From IMG/VR virus record IMGVR_UViG_3300043313_001243, positions 1-47,767 of that record: 47,767 bases of DNA; one strand, 5' to 3'. The translations under genes and the position numbers were made by a program. The notes below the pieces were generated by a model. The model was not told the DNA's origin and made no database searches. It saw only the letters and a list, made by a program, of their open reading frames with translations. Shown here in pieces: positions 2,188 to 40,225 of the stretch (positions are counted from its first letter, which is position 1; every line of letters begins with the position of its first letter). Origin of the DNA: a virus.

Positions 2188-2613
2188 GTGGCACCGACCC
2201 CTGAAGTCAATCGCATGCGGTTCGCGCAGTTCGTCGCGCGGACCCTCGCCGGTGCGCGCGACCGCGGCATGACTGACCGGGACATCCACGCCGCGACCGG
2301 GGTCCCGCCGAGCACCTTCCATCGCTGGCAGAAGGGGCAGGTCGCCACCGCGCCCGACCTCGACAAGGTCAAACGCTTCTGCGAAGGGCTCGGCGTCAGC
2401 GTCACGGCCGCCATGACCGCGCTCGGCCTGGCGCCCGGCCGCGACACCACCGAACCGGAGCCGCCGCTCCCGCCGGAGATCCGCACCATCCTGCGCCGGC
2501 TCGCCGACCCCAACGTCCCGGAGTCCGACAAGCTCGTCATCCGGGAGATGCTCAGGATGCTCGCGCAGCAGGCCCGGCGCACCGAGCCGCCGCCACGGGA
2601 GGGGACAGCCTGA
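2188..2613 (+). CDS. Lysogeny repressor candidate with Xre-type HTH (141 aa)
   Basis: GTG 2188 is chosen because TACCGT lies six bases upstream and because the region before it is not protein-like; ATG 2215 is possible. Residues about 10-75 hold a lambda-repressor-type HTH (GMTDRDIHAATGVPPSTFHR then WQKG), recognition helix around PPSTFHRW. The C-terminal part is a Pro linker plus a helix (VPESDKLVIREMLRMLAQQA) that could dimerise. The TGA overlaps the integrase ATG (TGATG), coupling repressor and integrase expression. It is divergent from the early operon across the 1924-1966 operators. Together with int this forms the immunity/integration switch. Confidence 0.75.
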   Translation: MAPTPEVNRMRFAQFVARTLAGARDRGMTDRDIHAATGVPPSTFHRWQKGQVATAPDLDKVKRFCEGLGVSVTAAMTALGLAPGRDTTEPEPPLPPEIRTILRRLADPNVPESDKLVIREMLRMLAQQARRTEPPPREGTA

Positions 2614-3851
2614 TGGCGCGCAAGCGGCAGCCGGTCATCAGCAAGGGCAGCGACGGGCAGTTCCACGCCTGGGTGACCGTCGGCACCAAGACGAACGGCC
2701 GCCCCGACCAGCGTCACGTCAAGCGGGCCACGGAGGCCGAGGTCGAGGAGCGCGTAGACGAGCTGCTCGACCAGGTGCGGGCGGGTGCGGTCGTCAAGGC
2801 GGGCCGCGGGATGACCGTCGAGCAGTGGCTGACGGTCTACCTGGAGACGGTCGCGCCGCGCCGCTGCGACCCGACCACGATCTACGACTACCGGTCCAAG
2901 ATGCGCAACTGGGTGTATCCGGTCGTCGGCGGCGTCCGGGTGGATCGCCTGCGGCCCGACCAGCTCGACGAGGTGTACCTGCGGATGGCGCGCGCGGGCA
3001 AGGCTGACAGCTCGACGTTGAAGGTGCACCGCATCCTCACCCGCGCCCTGGAGATCGCGTTCCGGCGGGGTCTGGTGCCGCGCAACGTCGCGAAGCTCAT
3101 CGACTCGCCCACGGTGAAGCGGGTCGAGATCCTGCCGCTGAGCGAGGCCGAGGCCGTCGCCGTGCTCGACAAGGCGATCGCGTCGCGTCGGCGCAACACG
3201 GCCCGCTGGTCGGTGGGGCTGGCGCTGGGCCTGCGTCAGGGTGAGGCGCTCGGCCTGCGCTGGCCGTACGTCGACCTGGAGCGCGGCGAAATCCGGGTGT
3301 GGTGGCAGCTGCACCGGCGAGCGTTCGAGCACGGCTGCGGCGGCACGTGCGGGCGCCGTCGCGGCGGGAACTGCCCGGCGAAGGTGCTGCCGCTGCGCTC
3401 CGGCGAGCAGGTCGCGACGGGCGGGCTGATCCTCAAAGAGCCGAAGGGTAAGAGCAAGCGGACGATCCCGATCCCGGTCGAGCTCGTCGAGGCGCTGAGG
3501 GTGCACCGGGAGGTGCAGGGGTTCGAGCGGCAGTACGCCGAGTCGGCCTACCTGAAGCACGGGTTCGTGTTCGCTCACCCCGACGGCCGGCCGCTGGACC
3601 CGGGTGACGACTTCGACGACTGGAAGGGTCTGCTCGCCGCGGCGGGTGTGCGTGACGCGCGGGTGCACGACGGGCGGCACACAGCGGCGACGCTTCTGCT
3701 GGCGCAGGGCGTGCGGCTGGAAGTGGTGCAGGAGATCCTCGGCCACTCCGACATCCGGGTGACGCGGGGCTACTCGCACGTGGCGTCGGCGATGGCCCGG
3801 GCGGCGACCGACGGCATGGGCGCGGCGCTGCTGCGCAAGCGGCTACCGTGA
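2613..3851 (+). CDS. int: Tyrosine recombinase, phage integrase
   Basis: 412 aa, ATG coupled to the repressor stop. Order of domains: basic N-terminal arm-binding region (1-65), core-binding SAM-like domain (about 67-165), catalytic domain (about 175-400). Catalytic residues visible: Arg208 (GLRQGEALGL), His352 and Arg355 (HDGRH), His378 (LGHSD) and nucleophile Tyr387 (TRGYSHV); Lys276 or nearby is the likely beta-hairpin lysine. A Cys-rich insert at about 240-256 (HGCGGTCGRRRGGNC) is common in actinobacterial integrases. It would recombine attP at 4600-4650 with a tRNA-Thr(CGT) gene; the arm repeats at 4505-4526 and 4720-4741 are the expected N-domain sites. Confidence 0.95.
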   Translation: MARKRQPVISKGSDGQFHAWVTVGTKTNGRPDQRHVKRATEAEVEERVDELLDQVRAGAVVKAGRGMTVEQWLTVYLETVAPRRCDPTTIYDYRSKMRNWVYPVVGGVRVDRLRPDQLDEVYLRMARAGKADSSTLKVHRILTRALEIAFRRGLVPRNVAKLIDSPTVKRVEILPLSEAEAVAVLDKAIASRRRNTARWSVGLALGLRQGEALGLRWPYVDLERGEIRVWWQLHRRAFEHGCGGTCGRRRGGNCPAKVLPLRSGEQVATGGLILKEPKGKSKRTIPIPVELVEALRVHREVQGFERQYAESAYLKHGFVFAHPDGRPLDPGDDFDDWKGLLAAAGVRDARVHDGRHTAATLLLAQGVRLEVVQEILGHSDIRVTRGYSHVASAMARAATDGMGAALLRKRLP

Positions 3852-6954: not shown

Positions 6955-7188
6955 TCATTCGCCAGCGTCGTCCTTGCGTTGAGGGAGCTTGGCATCGGGC
7001 TTCCTGAGGTACCAGCGCATGAATTCGCGGATGACACCTGACCGGCTGTCCTCGCCGCCGGAGGTCGCCTCGCCGAACTCGTCCCACAGGTCGGGTTCCA
7101 CCCGGATGGTTCGGCGGTCGGTGCCCTTCGACGTCACAAGGGACAGGGTGTCATGACCAACAAGGGGATCGTGCGTTGTAGGTGTCAT
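6955..7188 (-). CDS. Ribbon-helix-helix (Arc/MetJ-type) repressor of the transfer module
   Basis: 77 aa from ATG 7188; GTG 7137 would give a shorter 60-aa form starting just before the conserved part. The RHH fold is visible: beta strand TDRRTIRVEPDLWDEFGEA (about 23-41), helix 2 after a Gly-rich turn (SRSGVIREFMRWYLRKP, about 48-65). Such dimers bind palindromes through the paired beta ribbon. Two perfect GGTGTCATGACACC palindromes overlap this gene's start and that of the divergent membrane gene, and a third near-copy lies inside the coding region, so autorepression and control of the transfer-like operon are strongly indicated. Confidence 0.85.
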   Translation of the reverse strand: MTPTTHDPLVGHDTLSLVTSKGTDRRTIRVEPDLWDEFGEATSGGEDSRSGVIREFMRWYLRKPDAKLPQRKDDAGE

Positions 7189-7220
7189 GACACCATGCTA
7201 GCTTGGGTGTCATGACACCC
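7146..7220. promoter_or_regulatory. RHH operators with overlapping divergent leaderless promoters
   Basis: Perfect palindromes at 7181-7194 (GGTGTCATGACACC) and 7205-7220 (GGGTGTCATGACACCC), plus GGGTGTCATGACC at 7146-7158. The ATG of the minus gene (7188) and of the plus gene (7212) are the central ATG of the two perfect palindromes. The -10 elements TAGCAT (minus strand, 7200-7195) and TAGCTT (plus strand, 7199-7204) share bases and end 6 and 7 nt before the two ATGs. Neither gene has a Shine-Dalgarno sequence. Binding to both palindromes would block both promoters. Confidence 0.75.
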
Positions 7221-7496
7221 GCTAGTGCAAGCAAGCGGCGTCGCGTCGCGCTGTCATTCATCCGTCGTCACCGCCTCTCCCTAGCGGTCTCCACCGTCCT
7301 CGCCGGCCTCGCGCTGAACGTGCTGGTGCAGGACGGGGTGAAGCCGTTCCTGATCGTCGTGGCCGCCGGGGTCGGCTACGTGCTGGTGCTCGGCTCGGTC
7401 GGCTGGCTGACCGGCGCGCAGGTCGTGAGGCATTCCCGGCGTGAGGCTGCGGCGATCCAGGCGGGCAAGCACTCTGCGAAGGAGCTGACCCAGTGA
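7212..7496 (+). CDS. Small two-TM membrane protein, first gene of transfer-like operon
   Basis: 94 aa from ATG 7212 inside the operator; TTG 7203 and GTG 7209 are less likely. Basic N-terminus (SKRRRVALSFIRRHR), hydrophobic segments at about 22-38 and 45-68 (FLIVVAAGVGYVLVLGSVGWLTG), basic C-terminus. Its TGA overlaps the GTG of the DUF2637 gene in GTGA. Size and position resemble the small Spd membrane proteins that act with TraB in Streptomyces plasmids, but I cannot show homology. Confidence 0.65.
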   Translation: MTPASASKRRRVALSFIRRHRLSLAVSTVLAGLALNVLVQDGVKPFLIVVAAGVGYVLVLGSVGWLTGAQVVRHSRREAAAIQAGKHSAKELTQ

Positions 7497-8290
7497 CCGA
7501 CCTGCCGAAGCTGCGCCGGATCCGGTGGGCGGCGCGTGGCGTGCTCGTGCTGGGCCTGCTCGCGTCGACCGTCGGCAACGTGCTGCACGCGCAGCCGAAG
7601 TTCGTCAGCCAGGCGATCAGCGCGTGGCCGGTCCTCGCCCTGTATCTGACCATCGAACTGATCGCCCGCGTGCCGATGCACCGCACCGGCCTCGCGGTCG
7701 GGCGGGTCCTCGCTACGGCGGTCATCGCCGGGATCGCGGCGTGGGTCAGCTACTGGCACATGGCGGCGGTCGCGTCGGAGTACGGGGAGACGGCGCCGAG
7801 CCAGTACCTGCTGCCGTTCTCTGTCGACGGGCTGATCGTCATCGCGTCGATCTGTCTTGTTGAGCTGGGCGGCCGGATCGCGGCCGCCGAAACCGAAGGG
7901 GTCACCGATGGGCAAGAGACTGGAGAACCTCGGCCGGAAGGCGAACGCGGCGATCACCGCGATGGAGGCGAAGGAAGTAGCCGCCTACGCGAAGGTGACG
8001 CGGCGGGACGCGGACCGGCGGGAGGCGGAGATCCTGCGCCGGTCGGCGACGGTGCTGCGCCGGAAGTAACGCCCGCCGAGCGGGTCAAGTTGACCCGGCC
8101 GCGGAAGCGCCCGCCGACAGTCGCGGGGAAGGTCGCCCGCGCGCACAAGCAGAACCCGGACGCGTCGCACGCCGAGCTCGCGAGGCGGCTCGACTTGAGC
8201 CCCGCCACGGTGAAGCGGCACCGGCCGAAACCAGAGCAGATCAACGGCAACGTGCCGGCACTCGTCGGCACCAGCGAGGAGGAGAACTGA
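7493..8290 (+). CDS. DUF2637 membrane protein with C-terminal HTH, Spd-like
   Basis: 265 aa, GTG 7493 in a GTGA overlap. N-terminal domain (about 1-130) has four hydrophobic segments (ARGVLVLGLLASTVGNVL, WPVLALYLTIELIAR, VLATAVIAGIAAWVSY, VDGLIVIASICLVELGGR), the pattern of DUF2637 proteins of actinomycete plasmids and integrative conjugative elements. A low-complexity linker (about 131-195) follows, then a C-terminal HTH-like region (HAELARRLDLSPATVKRHRP, about 228-247). In plasmids such proteins accompany TraB in intramycelial spread (family knowledge). The linker codons have unusually low GC at third positions because a second gene runs through them in another frame. Confidence 0.8.
   Translation: MTDLPKLRRIRWAARGVLVLGLLASTVGNVLHAQPKFVSQAISAWPVLALYLTIELIARVPMHRTGLAVGRVLATAVIAGIAAWVSYWHMAAVASEYGETAPSQYLLPFSVDGLIVIASICLVELGGRIAAAETEGVTDGQETGEPRPEGERGDHRDGGEGSSRLREGDAAGRGPAGGGDPAPVGDGAAPEVTPAERVKLTRPRKRPPTVAGKVARAHKQNPDASHAELARRLDLSPATVKRHRPKPEQINGNVPALVGTSEEEN
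7908..8069 (+). CDS. Nested out-of-frame gene: 53-aa charged helical protein
   Basis: ATG 7908 with GAAGGGG ending about 8 nt upstream, TAA 8067, wholly inside the DUF2637 gene in another frame. The protein (MGKRLENLGRKANAAITAME, AKEVAAYAKVTRRDADRREA, EILRRSATVLRRK) is a continuous amphipathic basic helix. In this stretch the nested frame has about 90 percent G or C at third codon positions, while the DUF2637 frame has about half, the reverse of the rest of that gene. This says selection on codon use follows the nested frame. The DUF2637 frame encodes only a Gly/Glu/Arg linker here. Confidence 0.6.
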   Translation: MGKRLENLGRKANAAITAMEAKEVAAYAKVTRRDADRREAEILRRSATVLRRK

Positions 8291-9156: not shown

Positions 9157-11217
9157 ATGGCAGAGATCCAGGCGGGGCCGCCCGAACCCGACGACGCCGG
9201 CCCGCGCCCGGACGACGCCGAGTCGTACGTGCAGGAGCCGACCGTGCACGTCAAGGTGACGTCGCAGCCGGAACCGCCGACGGTGTACGCGACCGTCACG
9301 CAGCTCGCCACGTCCGAGCGGCGGCCGATCATCCCGGCGTGGATGCGGACCTCCGACGCCCGCCGGGTGTTCCTCGCGCAGATGTGGGGCCTGTTCTGGT
9401 ACTCGGTCATGCTGCAAGCCTGGTCAACCCCGGGGTATCTCGCGAAAGCCGCCTACTACGCGCCGTGGGGGTTGCTGAAGTTCACCGGCCGGCAGCTGCG
9501 CTGGATGTGGCATCCGGAACTCACGCAGATGATGCAGCACTCGGCGACCGCGAACGACGTCACCGAGGGCATGAGGGCGGCCGACAAGGTCTCAGCCGCG
9601 CGTAAGGCCCGCGCGTACCTACTGCTCGCCGAGCTGGTCGCCGCGGTCGTCGGGGGGCTGCTGCTCTGGTACATGGCGCCGTGGTGGGTGTTCTGGCTGG
9701 CGGTGGCGGTCGCTGTGCCGGTGTTCGCCCGGATCGGCCGGCCGGAGGAGAAGCCGATCATCCAGCACGTGACGGTCGGAAAGCGGTTCACCCGCCTCAC
9801 GCAGGAGCAGGTCCGTAACGCGCTGGTGGCGCTACGGCTGACCGGGCTCACGAAGCCGGGCGACATCTCGTTTCCGCCGCCGGGTGTACGCGGCGATGGG
9901 CCGGGGTGGCTGGCTCGGTTCGACCTGCCGCCGGGGCTCGTTGCCTCCGACGTGCTCGCCAAGCGCGACCGCCTGTCCGGTGCGCTGCGCCTGCCGCTCG
10001 ATCAGGTGTGGCCGGAGGTCGGGCCCGAGCACCTCGCGCAGGTCGACCTGTGGGTCGGGTTCAAGCCGGCGTCAGCGATGGGCGAACCGAAATGGGACCT
10101 GGCCAAGCCGACCGCGGCGACCAGCATCTTTGAGCCGCACGCGTTCGCCACCGACGCCCGCGGCCGGCCGATCGACATCATCCTGTTCCAGCGCAACATC
10201 CTCATGGGCGGGCAGCCGGGCGCGGGGAAGTCGTTCGGTGCCCGCGCCATCATGACGATCGCCGGGCTGGATCCGACGTGTGAGATGAAGGTCGCCGAGT
10301 TCAAGGGCGTCGGCGACTTCCTCGACCTGGAGCCGCTGTGCACCGACTACGCGTGCGGGGTCGACGACGAGGCATTCGACATCGGCGAAGCCATCATCGA
10401 CTGGGCGCTGGCCGAGTGTGAGCGGCGCGGCGCCCGGATCAAGAAGCTGCGGCAGACCGGGGTATGCCCGGACGGGATGCTCACCCCGGAAATCGTGCGC
10501 AAGGTCCGCGGCCTGCACCCGGTGGTGATCCTGATCGACGAGCTGCACGAGCTGCTACTGAACCGCAAGGGCGTCGCCGAGAAGCTGGAACGGGTGCTGC
10601 GCCGCGGCCGCGCCATGGGCATCATCTTCATTCTGGCCACGCAGATCCCGGACGCGAACACCATCCCGACCGGCATCACGAAGATGGTCTCGATCCGGAT
10701 CTGCATGTCGGTCGCGGACTGGCAGTCGAATGACCAGATCCTTGGCACCGGCGCCTACAAGCGCGGCCACACCGCCACCATGTTCCGGCCCGGCTACGAC
10801 CAGGGGTGGGGCGTCATGCAGGGCCTGCGCCGCGACGGCGAAACCGGCCGCACCTACTTCCCGGACCCGGAAGCCCGGGCGGCGATCGTCGAGCGGATGC
10901 GGGTGCTGCGCGGCGGCAAGGTTGTCGGCGACCAGGGCGAGAAGCTGAAGGCGCGGGACATGTTGGCCGACGCCCGGTCGTGCCTGCGCAACCACGAGGC
11001 CGGCGTGCCGTGGGGCGTCCTCGCCGATCGGCTCGCCGAGTTGGACCCGGAGACGTACGCGGGCATCACCGGGGACATGGTCCGGACGGCGCTCGAGCGG
11101 TACGACATCGTCACCGACGACGTGAAGGTGAAGGTCGACGGGAAGTGGACCAACCTTAAGGGGATGCGCCGCAAGGCCCTCGAGGACGCGATCGCCAAGC
11201 GTGCGATCGAGGGCTGA
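9157..11217 (+). CDS. FtsK/SpoIIIE-type DNA translocase, TraB/TraSA-like
   Basis: 686 aa, ATG 9157 with AAGGAG 9 nt upstream. Layout: acidic Pro-rich N-terminus (1-50), hydrophobic pair (about 150-190, LLLAELVAAVVGGLLLWYMA and WWVFWLAVAVAVPVFA), linker domain (200-340), RecA-like motor with Walker A GQPGAGKS (352-359) and Walker B VVILIDE (456-462), then ILATQ and a C-terminal winged-helix-like domain (about 610-686). This is the plan of the hexameric double-stranded-DNA pumps of Streptomyces-type conjugation (TraB) and of FtsK. In TraB the C-terminal wing recognises 8-bp repeats in clt (family knowledge); a cluster of 9-bp repeats follows this gene. In a phage it could move phage DNA between mycelial compartments, or help resolve recombination near attP. 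Confidence 0.9.
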   Translation: MAEIQAGPPEPDDAGPRPDDAESYVQEPTVHVKVTSQPEPPTVYATVTQLATSERRPIIPAWMRTSDARRVFLAQMWGLFWYSVMLQAWSTPGYLAKAAYYAPWGLLKFTGRQLRWMWHPELTQMMQHSATANDVTEGMRAADKVSAARKARAYLLLAELVAAVVGGLLLWYMAPWWVFWLAVAVAVPVFARIGRPEEKPIIQHVTVGKRFTRLTQEQVRNALVALRLTGLTKPGDISFPPPGVRGDGPGWLARFDLPPGLVASDVLAKRDRLSGALRLPLDQVWPEVGPEHLAQVDLWVGFKPASAMGEPKWDLAKPTAATSIFEPHAFATDARGRPIDIILFQRNILMGGQPGAGKSFGARAIMTIAGLDPTCEMKVAEFKGVGDFLDLEPLCTDYACGVDDEAFDIGEAIIDWALAECERRGARIKKLRQTGVCPDGMLTPEIVRKVRGLHPVVILIDELHELLLNRKGVAEKLERVLRRGRAMGIIFILATQIPDANTIPTGITKMVSIRICMSVADWQSNDQILGTGAYKRGHTATMFRPGYDQGWGVMQGLRRDGETGRTYFPDPEARAAIVERMRVLRGGKVVGDQGEKLKARDMLADARSCLRNHEAGVPWGVLADRLAELDPETYAGITGDMVRTALERYDIVTDDVKVKVDGKWTNLKGMRRKALEDAIAKRAIEG

Positions 11218-11218
11218 C

Positions 11219-11374
11219 GTGTCGCGGCGACCCCACCCCCTCACACCCGCGTTTCAGGCCGTTTCCGGGGGGTTGGCGCACGGGCCGCGACACGCGACAT
11301 CTGGCCGTTTCCGCAGGCCATGCCGTGTCGCGGCCCGTGTCGCGGAACCGCGACAAGATTCTGGTCCGCGACAC
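11219..11374. repeat. Cluster of GTGTCGCGG repeats, clt-like or operator array
   Basis: Copies of GTGTCGCGG: plus strand at 11219-11227, 11325-11333 and 11337-11345; minus strand (CCGCGACAC) at 11285-11293, 11348-11356 (one mismatch) and 11366-11374; a degenerate copy overlaps 11293-11300. All lie in the 171-bp gap directly downstream of the translocase gene. Repeats of similar length at the 3' end of traB are the TraB-binding clt site in Streptomyces plasmids (known for that family). A regulator operator for the gene at 11389 is the alternative. Confidence 0.7.
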
Positions 11375-11388
11375 GGAATCGGGGACCG

Positions 11389-11628
11389 ATGATCGGCTGG
11401 CTGATCCTCGCCGGGGTGGTCTGGATCGTCCTGTACGCCGGGGTGTGTGCGGTGTGGCCGTGGGGCCGGTGCGGTCGCTGCGACGGCAGCGGGCGCAAGT
11501 ATCAGCCGCTGTCCCGCAAGAAGAACTGGCGGGACTGCCGCAAGTGCGGCGGCACTGGTCGGCGGGTCCGCCTCGGCCGCCGGTTCTGGTCCTGGGTCGG
11601 CAAGCGCAAGCACGACGCGGTCGGATAG
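11389..11628 (+). CDS. Membrane-anchored zinc-finger protein (79 aa)
   Basis: ATG 11389. One TM segment (MIGWLILAGVVWIVLYAGVC, residues 1-20) is followed by two DnaJ-type half fingers, CGRCDGSGRK (about 30-39) and CRKCGGTGRR (about 50-59), with a basic C-terminus. The CxxCxGxG pairs should bind one zinc. Last gene of the transfer-like module, after the repeat cluster and before a terminator. Such small CxxCxGxG membrane proteins occur in actinomycete plasmids; the role is unknown. Confidence 0.65.
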   Translation: MIGWLILAGVVWIVLYAGVCAVWPWGRCGRCDGSGRKYQPLSRKKNWRDCRKCGGTGRRVRLGRRFWSWVGKRKHDAVG

Positions 11629-12485: not shown

Positions 12486-12573
12486 CCAGGGGGCGGCGAT
12501 TTGAACCCGCGTCCTCCGGCCGTCGTCGGTCTCAGACCTAGGCCGGTGCTCTGCCGAGCTGAGCTACCCCTGA
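12486..12573 (-). tRNA. tRNA-like gene with enlarged anticodon loop, identity unclear
   Basis: Minus-strand elements in order: acceptor TCAGGGG, TA, D arm GCTC...GAGC, anticodon stem CCGGC(C)/(G)GCCGG, variable loop AGGAC, T arm GCGGG TTCAAAT CGCCGC with one bulged base, acceptor CCCCTGG. All joints have canonical spacing except the anticodon loop, about 21 nt instead of 7, with an inner GGTC-TGA-GACC hairpin. If T33 follows the stem directly the anticodon would be AGG, but this is uncertain. CCA is not encoded. Could be a degraded tRNA, a tRNA with an insertion, or a tRNA mimic. Confidence 0.5.
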
Positions 12574-39136: not shown

Positions 39137-39354
39137 GGGTTCCTCCGGGACTTGATCGGGATGACGGGGGCGAGGCGGGCCGGGCGGTCGCGGAACTCGG
39201 CGGCGGGCGAGTTCTCGGGCTCGCGGTCCGGGTCGGCGATGGCTTCGCTACGGCAGAGACGGCAGTTGGTGCCCAGCTCGGACGAGTGGATGCGGCAGCG
39301 CGGGTCGTCGCGGTCGAGGTAGGGGCTGGGCTCGTCGAGCCAGTGGTCGGTCAC
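39133..39354 (-). CDS. Small Cys/His protein (73 aa)
   Basis: ATG 39354 overlaps the initiator stop in ATGA. MTDHWLDEPSPYLDRDDPRC, RIHSSELGTNCRLCRSEAIA; CRIHSxxxxxNCRLC looks like a C-H-C-C zinc knuckle (residues 20-34). The rest is a basic disordered tail. Unknown function. Confidence 0.55.
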   Translation of the reverse strand: MTDHWLDEPSPYLDRDDPRCRIHSSELGTNCRLCRSEAIADPDREPENSPAAEFRDRPARLAPVIPIKSRRNP

Positions 39355-40151
39355 ATCGCCTCCCGCGTGAAGAAATCGACGAGGACGCCGCTCGGTCCGC
39401 GCGTGTGCGGGAGTGAGTTGCGCTGTAGGTCTTGGGCCGGGTGAGGGGTCGCTGAGATTTCCTGTTTCGCTTCGATCCGGGCACCCGACGAAGGAGGGGG
39501 TTCGGGCCGTCGGGGGCCTGGGGGCGGCGCGCCCCCAGTGGGAGGTGATCTTTTACTGAGAGGTGGGGGCTCACTCATGGGTGAGCGCAGATAGCCGCTT
39601 CTGCGCTCACTTCTTTGCGTGAGCGCAGAAGGGTCGTCGTCGAACCCGTCGGAATCCCTAGGATCTGCGCTCACTTCAGGGGTGAGCGCAGATAGGCGGG
39701 CGTCGTCCGTATCGGCATCGCTGGTTTCTGCGCTCACCTTGTCTGAGCGCAGACGGCGACCCTTCTCGCCGACGCGGTTGGTGGCCTTCATGCCGTCGAC
39801 AAGATCCCGGTACTCGCCCTCGTCGAGGACGTTCAGGGCCTTCTCGGTGTCTGGCCCGATGGTCAGCCGGTACTCGTCGGCGCGCTTGGCCTTGCGGTTA
39901 CCGACCCGCACCAGCTCGATCAGGCCGACCTCGCGCAGCCAGGCGAGGTAGCGGCGGGCGGTGCTGTAGCCCATCTCGCAGTCGACGGCCAGGCGGGCGA
40001 TGCCGCACTTGACGCTCGTGCCGTCGGTGGCCGCGTACGACGCGATGACCAGCGCGGCGGACTTCTTCCTGGCGTCGCCGATGCGGGCACGGCGCACCAG
40101 GCGGTACCACGTGCCGAGTGGCACGCCATAGTCCTCGCTATCGGTGCCCAT
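39351..40151 (-). CDS. Winged-helix replication initiator candidate (266 aa)
   Basis: ATG 40151. Residues about 25-105 (ARKKSAALVIASYAATDGTS, VKCGIARLAVDCEMGYSTAR, RYLAWLREVGLIELVRVGNR) form a winged helix of the type found in phage O-like and plasmid initiators. Residues about 140-260 are disordered and Pro/Ser-rich (SEPPPLSKRSPPTGGAPPPG). The DNA encoding the disordered part contains seven copies of an 11-bp repeat in alternating orientation, as iterons or origins do (compare lambda ori inside O). Start is coupled to a leader peptide and preceded by a hairpin. A transcriptional regulator is the alternative. Confidence 0.6.
   Translation of the reverse strand: MGTDSEDYGVPLGTWYRLVRRARIGDARKKSAALVIASYAATDGTSVKCGIARLAVDCEMGYSTARRYLAWLREVGLIELVRVGNRKAKRADEYRLTIGPDTEKALNVLDEGEYRDLVDGMKATNRVGEKGRRLRSDKVSAETSDADTDDARLSALTPEVSADPRDSDGFDDDPSALTQRSERRSGYLRSPMSEPPPLSKRSPPTGGAPPPGPRRPEPPPSSGARIEAKQEISATPHPAQDLQRNSLPHTRGPSGVLVDFFTREAM
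39569..39753. repeat. Iteron-like array inside the initiator gene, candidate replication origin
   Basis: GTGAGCGCAGA at 39581-39591, 39619-39629, 39682-39692 and (one mismatch) 39743-39753; the inverse TCTGCGCTCAC at 39600-39610, 39664-39674 and 39727-39737. Orientation strictly alternates. Spacings are 19, 19, 45, 18, 45, 16, so like copies recur at 63 bp, six helical turns. An extra half-site GGCTCAC precedes at 39569-39575. The array lies in the part of the gene encoding a disordered linker, which tolerates such DNA constraint. Confidence 0.75.
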
Positions 40152-40225
40152 CAACCACCCGCCAGGGTGGCGAGAAGACGCACCGCGTTGCGGGCATGCG
40201 ACAGAGGGGTAGGCCGTGGCAGCAT
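40151..40225 (-). CDS. Leader peptide coupled to the initiator gene (24 aa)
   Basis: ATG 40225 has an ideal Shine-Dalgarno GGAAGGAGG (40243-40235) with 9-nt spacing. It encodes MLPRPTPLSHARNAVRLLAT then LAGG and its TGA overlaps the initiator ATG (TGATG). The leader frame runs through the hairpin at 40155-40170. The initiator itself has only a weak site, so its translation probably depends on the leader. Confidence 0.5.
   Translation of the reverse strand: MLPRPTPLSHARNAVRLLATLAGG
40155..40170 (-). promoter_or_regulatory. Hairpin immediately before the initiator start codon
   Basis: CCACCC (40155-40160), GCCA, GGGTGG (40165-40170): a 6-bp stem whose base is four nucleotides from the ATG at 40151. 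It would occlude ribosome entry at the initiator unless opened by ribosomes translating the leader peptide. Confidence 0.5.

Follow-up and report, generated by a model that had tools for sequence, protein, structure and literature searches.

A seven-site repeat module behind a TraB-type translocase gene is a probable clt-type locus in a temperate actinobacterial phage

A cluster of short repeats at 11219-11374 in a temperate actinobacterial phage is, on comparative sequence grounds, very probably a cis-acting recognition locus of the clt type for the translocase encoded just upstream. Its layout is conserved across relatives, and its repeat word is lineage-specific.

Phage and transfer block

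The window, the whole 47,767-nt stretch analyzed here (IMG/VR record IMGVR_UViG_3300043313_001243, 47.8 kb), reads as a temperate actinobacterial phage by gene content. It encodes tape-measure, major head, large terminase, portal, HNH, and O-like replication genes. A transfer-type block separates the integrase from the lysis and tail genes.

2613-3851: integrase (gene match)
7493..8290, + strand: DUF2637 protein with a C-terminal HTH, member of the transfer block (gene match)
9157..11217, + strand: TraB/FtsK-type translocase, 686 aa (weak FtsK/SpoIIIE and AAA matches)
11389..11628, + strand: small membrane protein carrying CxxC zinc motifs (DnaJ zinc-motif match that misses the Pfam cut-off, E 2e-4)

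The CxxC gene is the usual next gene among relatives and lies within 900 nt of traB in 116 of 163 loci. Among the nearest published phages there was no close match at the DNA level and only an FtsK match of 31%, in Streptomyces phage Gilgamesh. A candidate minus-strand tRNA at 12487-12572, reported by Rfam with no ARAGORN call, sits among the lysis-side genes.

The translocase has a Walker A motif GQPGAGKS (352) and a Walker B motif VVILIDE (456). N-terminal hydrophobic stretches at about residues 70-195 were taken as membrane segments by reading the sequence. The protein is 30% identical to pSVH1 TraB over 374 aa, in the motor (E 7e-32). The window protein combines the features of the TraB family: membrane segments, a Walker A/B motor, and a predicted C-terminal winged helix.

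Repeat cluster

The cluster fills the gap between the traB stop at 11217 and the next gene start at about 11389. The original prediction described six copies, three per strand, plus a degenerate one. Five copies of GTGTCGCGG are exact (11219+, 11285-, 11325+, 11337+, and 11366-); the supposed sixth is TTGTCGCGG at 11348-, with one mismatch, and the degenerate copy is present as ATGTCGCGT at 11292-. TGTCGCG is the better repeat unit, with seven copies in 155 bp, three on the plus strand and four on the minus strand. Seven copies in 160 bp compare with 0.04 expected (Poisson p 3e-14), and five GTGTCGCGG in the cluster with 0.017 expected (p 1e-11). Confinement of the repeat to the gap held insofar as 11219-11374 is the sole clustering of the word within the window, but five further exact GTGTCGCGG are scattered outside it over the 47.8 kb (shuffle expectation for the whole window, 2.6).

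11219..11374: putative clt-type module of seven 7-9 bp sites at fixed spacing, reversed relative to traB when compared with most relatives
11219..11227, + strand: site 7 (outlying), GTGTCGCGG
11250..11270, - strand: second AAAC-like stretch (CGTTTCAGGCCGTTTCCGGGG on the plus strand), conserved in L009
11285..11293, - strand: site 6, GTGTCGCGG
11292..11300, - strand: site 5, ATGTCGCGT, with two bases shared with site 6
11303..11319, - strand: spacer AAAC box, located between sites 4 and 5, GGCCTGCGGAAACGGCC in the minus-strand reading
11325..11333, + strand: site 4, GTGTCGCGG
11337..11345, + strand: site 3, GTGTCGCGG
11348..11356, - strand: site 2, TTGTCGCGG (one mismatch)
11366..11374, - strand: site 1, GTGTCGCGG

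Sites 3 and 2 form a palindromic core, TGTCGCGG-AA-CCGCGACA. The spacer between sites 4 and 5 holds the second conserved element of these modules, roughly CTGACCTGCGNAAAC, which also occurs behind pSVH1 traB; the window's AAAC box GGCCTGCGGAAACGGCC resembles the CTGACCTGCGCAAAC found there. The AAAC box, the seven-site layout, and the inversion of the module described below were absent from the original prediction.

Conservation behind traB

A single-protein query of viral contigs returned one relative only, and an alignment query was used instead. The alignment-query scans yielded 80 loci from genomes and 79 from virus contigs. A repeat cluster (p<=1e-6) was present in the 220 bp after traB at 135 of 164 testable loci, compared with 674 of 15,203 control windows (4.4%). 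The closest homologue, L009 (86% identity over a 292-residue fragment), has retained the cluster, with more divergence in the CxxC gene that follows. L009, L093 (76%), and L095 (51%) carry the same word, TGTCGCG, at the same positions as the window, with L093 partly degenerate. Loss of the repeats beside close homologues, which would have spoken against a recognition locus, was looked for in these loci and not found. Of the more distant homologues, most have a word of their own in the same gap, and the nearer of these also share the layout.

Other lineage words include GGTCGCG, GGTAGCG, GGTAACG, TGCTAGCG, TGCTTCCG, and TGTTCCG. Most lineage words fit NNN-T-NN-CG-N, the window being GTG-T-CG-CG-G, with the motif register partly set by hand (eight GGTAACG-type loci and L093). 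Forward modules place site 7 within the opening codons of the CxxC gene, as in L016, where it lies some 157 nt past the traB stop. These codons track the lineage word (CGCTACC, CGTTACC, and CGCGACC) and therefore point to a DNA-level constraint inside the coding sequence.

Seven-site layout and its inversion

Layouts were compared with a template of sites at 0, 18, 29, 41, 74, 82, and 148, with orientations fixed. Counted from the traB stop, the window sites lie at 2>, 68<, 75<, 108>, 120>, 131<, and 149<, and those of L013 at 11>, 29>, 40<, 52<, 85>, 93>, and 160<. Read backwards, the window becomes 0>, 18>, 29<, 41<, 74>, 81>, and 147<; L013, rebased, is 0>, 18>, 29<, 41<, 74>, 82>, and 149<. 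The reversed window matches the template at seven of seven sites, and 234 other stretches of the window reach at most four. Most relatives in the window's clade match six or seven. The window module is a mirror image, across all seven matched sites, of the module in Micromonospora relatives.

The reversed orientation is common to the window, L009, L093, L095, L027/L099, L097, and L100, and most of the clade is forward. Inverted modules are spread over several distinct branches of the TraB tree. The idea that inversion is specific to phages was rejected, since the L094 and L096 records have a terminase yet carry forward modules. A module that inverts with its layout intact is a unit independent of the direction of traB transcription. 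Because it flips whole, with its internal geometry preserved, it behaves like a cis-acting site and not a promoter.

C-terminal winged helix as candidate reader

10924..11214, + strand: C-terminal domain of the translocase, residues 590-686, predicted winged helix (AlphaFold2) with candidate specificity residue D655

The AlphaFold2 model of residues 590-686 has a mean pLDDT of 85.7 and the order H-E-H-H-E-E-H, with D655 at the point where the first wing strand begins. Structure searches returned generic, low-scoring winged-helix DNA-binding proteins, with a best Foldseek E of 0.02 and a Z of about 6; the matches listed did not include FtsK gamma. A profile search of the domain against PDB gave nothing meaningful.

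Association between word and protein was scanned over 82 non-redundant loci and 588 alignment columns. For the central dinucleotide, 17 of the 25 best-associated TraB columns lie in the C-terminal domain, which holds 88 of the 588 columns, and the top column is D655. When only the window's clade is considered, D655 is well ahead of the other columns for the second central base, with D or N accompanying G and T, G, or V accompanying A. The pattern at residue 655 had been noticed by eye before the scan, which took in all columns. The G/A base change occurred in three independent events, residue 655 never being opposite to the pattern, which is too few for significance. The link of D655 to the site base is suggestive only.

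With core distance taken into account, the partial Mantel correlation between word and C-terminal domain was 0.37 (0 of 500 permutations as high), compared with 0.06 for the N-terminal region (69 of 500). In the clade nearest the window it was weaker, 0.18 (3 of 500), and core distance still accounted for part of the word (0.34). Given the C-terminal domain, the correlation with the word was -0.06 for DUF2637 and 0.11 for the CxxC protein (21 of 500), and the C-terminal association stayed at 0.63 and 0.50 in the two tests, respectively. On the motor-core tree, the 7-mer changed at least 31 times. As far as the alignments tell, the word tracks the pump's predicted C-terminal winged helix, not its other domains or the two neighboring proteins. 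A word matched to the protein's winged C-terminal domain had been proposed, and the co-variation, together with the fold predicted by AlphaFold2, agrees with that proposal.

Comparison with known loci

Streptomyces TraB is reported to assemble at clt on 8-bp repeats (PMC4170104), and pSVH1 TraB is described as recognizing 8-bp motifs via helix alpha3 of its C-terminal winged helix (PMC3583192). Streptomyces plasmid pSVH1 (NC_007431) resembles the window in having short repeats directly behind a homologous traB, in the same gap, and resembles the window's relatives in that a CTGACCTGCGCAAAC element follows the repeats. It differs in its word, GACCCGGA, present in four direct copies and one inverted copy, and lacks the seven-site convergent layout. 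This TRS word is not that of the window, whose sites are GTGTCGCGG.

In Streptomyces plasmid pWTY27 (NC_013667), clt, mapped by footprinting, runs from the last part of tra to 159 bp beyond the gene (PMC3583192); it occupies the same position as the window's module and likewise contains short repeats, direct and inverted. Unlike the window, pWTY27 has a TraB of a different branch with a different C-terminal sequence, and its words are TGACACC and CCCGCCC. It was rejected as a direct homologue; its TraB matched pSVH1 TraB only marginally (E 2e-4), and no match to the window's was listed. In this known conjugative plasmid (L212, 3643-3801), traB and clt are followed closely by a gene annotated as a phage major capsid protein. 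The pJV1 clt has nine repeats of CCGCACA[C/G][C/G] (quoted in PMC3583192), a sequence near the window's CCGCGACAC on the other strand; unlike those of the window, the pJV1 repeats are direct.

Integrative elements and plasmids of Nonomuraea, Micromonospora, and other actinomycetes combine a homologous traB and a CxxC gene with a cluster that occupies the same gap and has similar site positions. Unlike the window, they use TGCTAGCG as the word, arranged in palindromic pairs. The literature searched contained no published clt for these elements. FtsK and SpoIIIE are translocases with a C-terminal winged helix that reads 8-bp sites, KOPS and SRS, respectively. KOPS are dispersed and polar along the chromosome, whereas the window sites form one compact module in both orientations.

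Search from the palindromic core

Virus contigs were scanned with the bare palindromic core of three classes and no protein reference, giving 38 stretches. At least five sites lie close together in 10 of the 38, and 8 of these 10 adjoin a traB; none of the 28 stretches with at most four sites lies beside one. L199 is the record of L097. Of the two remaining stretches with at least five sites, L204 is an unrelated arrangement, and L195 (IMGVR_UViG_2619619047_000002) has a complete GGTCGCG-class module at about 560-900 and no traB in its 15,986-base record. It is possibly an element that borrows foreign pumps. Its module adjoins a second cluster, of GGCTAGC-type repeats.

Interpretation and alternatives

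The cluster adjoins an FtsK/TraB-type translocase gene and consists of multiple short repeats whose word co-varies with the translocase's C-terminal domain, as a clt would. Counter-points are the limited identity to pSVH1 TraB (about 30%, in the motor), the different site sequences and mostly direct repeats of pSVH1, the small number of base changes behind the D655 link, the weaker correlation in the nearest clade, the partly hand-set register, and the L195 module that stands without traB in its record. A clt with its own recognition word, as the original prediction had it, gains support from the layout, the conservation by gene, the inversion, and the co-variation of word and C-terminal domain. 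In the proposed mechanism, the C-terminal winged helix of each TraB subunit would read one 9-bp site, and the spaced convergent sites would load membrane-anchored TraB rings onto excised circular phage DNA. A loaded ring would then pump double-stranded DNA into a neighboring cell or hyphal compartment, as Streptomyces TraB does, which would offer the phage a second, conjugative route of spread; this step is less certain, at about even chances. A word specific to its lineage would confine each pump to its own element.

Transfer of the phage genome by conjugation would be the natural reading, with plasmid-like segregation of the prophage as its main rival. The module may load TraB in a non-conjugative phage, serving septal movement or segregation of a circular prophage or plasmid, or a role in the lytic cycle; this is a real but lesser possibility. 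The phage genomes that carry TraB and the module also encode head, tail, and packaging functions, and a terminase is present in 29 of 37 virus records carrying traB relatives. The Pseudonocardia plasmid pPaSha2, a 41.9-kb circle encoding terminase, portal, capsid, integrase, DUF2637, and TraB, with TGTAGCG-type repeats behind the CxxC gene, is a phage-plasmid that shares this transfer block, which makes a maintenance role conceivable. On the other side, plasmids and bacterial genomes carry loci of this type next to the same transfer-type genes, and in another actinobacterial plasmid one tra gene and clt are enough for transfer (PMC3583192).

Readings without TraB as the binding protein fare less well. 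The DUF2637 HTH protein and the CxxC protein are both encoded nearby, and SpdA2 binds palindromic sps sites in pIJ101 that lie in or near spdA (PMC4170104); site 7 of forward modules lies in the CxxC gene start. It is nevertheless very unlikely that the repeats bind the DUF2637 protein or a CxxC protein acting like SpdA2: once the TraB C-terminal domain is considered, DUF2637 divergence fails to explain the word and CxxC divergence explains it only weakly, and several loci keep the cluster with no CxxC gene detected. Set beside the conserved 12-bp palindrome of sps, the family shows no common word. The cluster is also directly upstream of the CxxC start codon, where a repressor might bind the repeats. 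It is nonetheless highly improbable that the cluster is an operator or promoter region for the CxxC gene or the tra operon, given the whole-module inversions with intact layout in several relatives, and a separate palindrome, GGTGTCATGACACC, is the more likely operator, with two copies near 7180-7220. Replication origin iterons are the least probable reading. The cluster does look iteron-like, being made of short repeats on both strands close to a mobile-element gene, but iterons would be adjacent to or inside an initiator gene, and the window's initiator-like gene is at 39351-40154 and holds separate repeats. Clusters also accompany elements with different replication genes, such as the primase/polymerase of L011.

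7147-7220: two GGTGTCATGACACC palindromes with an additional half site, in the stretch separating the divergent gene 6955-7188 from 7203, at the front of the transfer block
about 39584-39751: inverted TGAGCGCA repeats (CTGCGCTCAC/GTGAGCGCAG) within the minus-strand O-like gene for replication initiation, 39351-40154

The GGTGTCATGACACC palindromes are a likely operator at the head of the tra block, and the TGAGCGCA repeats are a likely phage origin. Because these repeats suggest roles of their own, an origin or operator role for the cluster behind traB is unlikely.

Implications

The clt loci known so far are, to our knowledge, a small and dissimilar set from Streptomyces plasmids. The putative loading site described here belongs to a set of more than 100 natural pump and site pairs with one layout and changing words, which offers a route to how a winged helix reads its address. 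Such pairs could predict which element mobilizes which. Pump and putative loading site together would make a complete conjugation core inside phages, including an isolate's circular phage-plasmid, and conjugative transfer of phage genomes is therefore directly testable. Many temperate actinobacterial phages may also be conjugative, with TraB moving their double-stranded genome between cells from a lineage-private module and some elements, such as L195, carrying just the module and borrowing pumps; this broader proposal is tentative, at somewhat below even chances.
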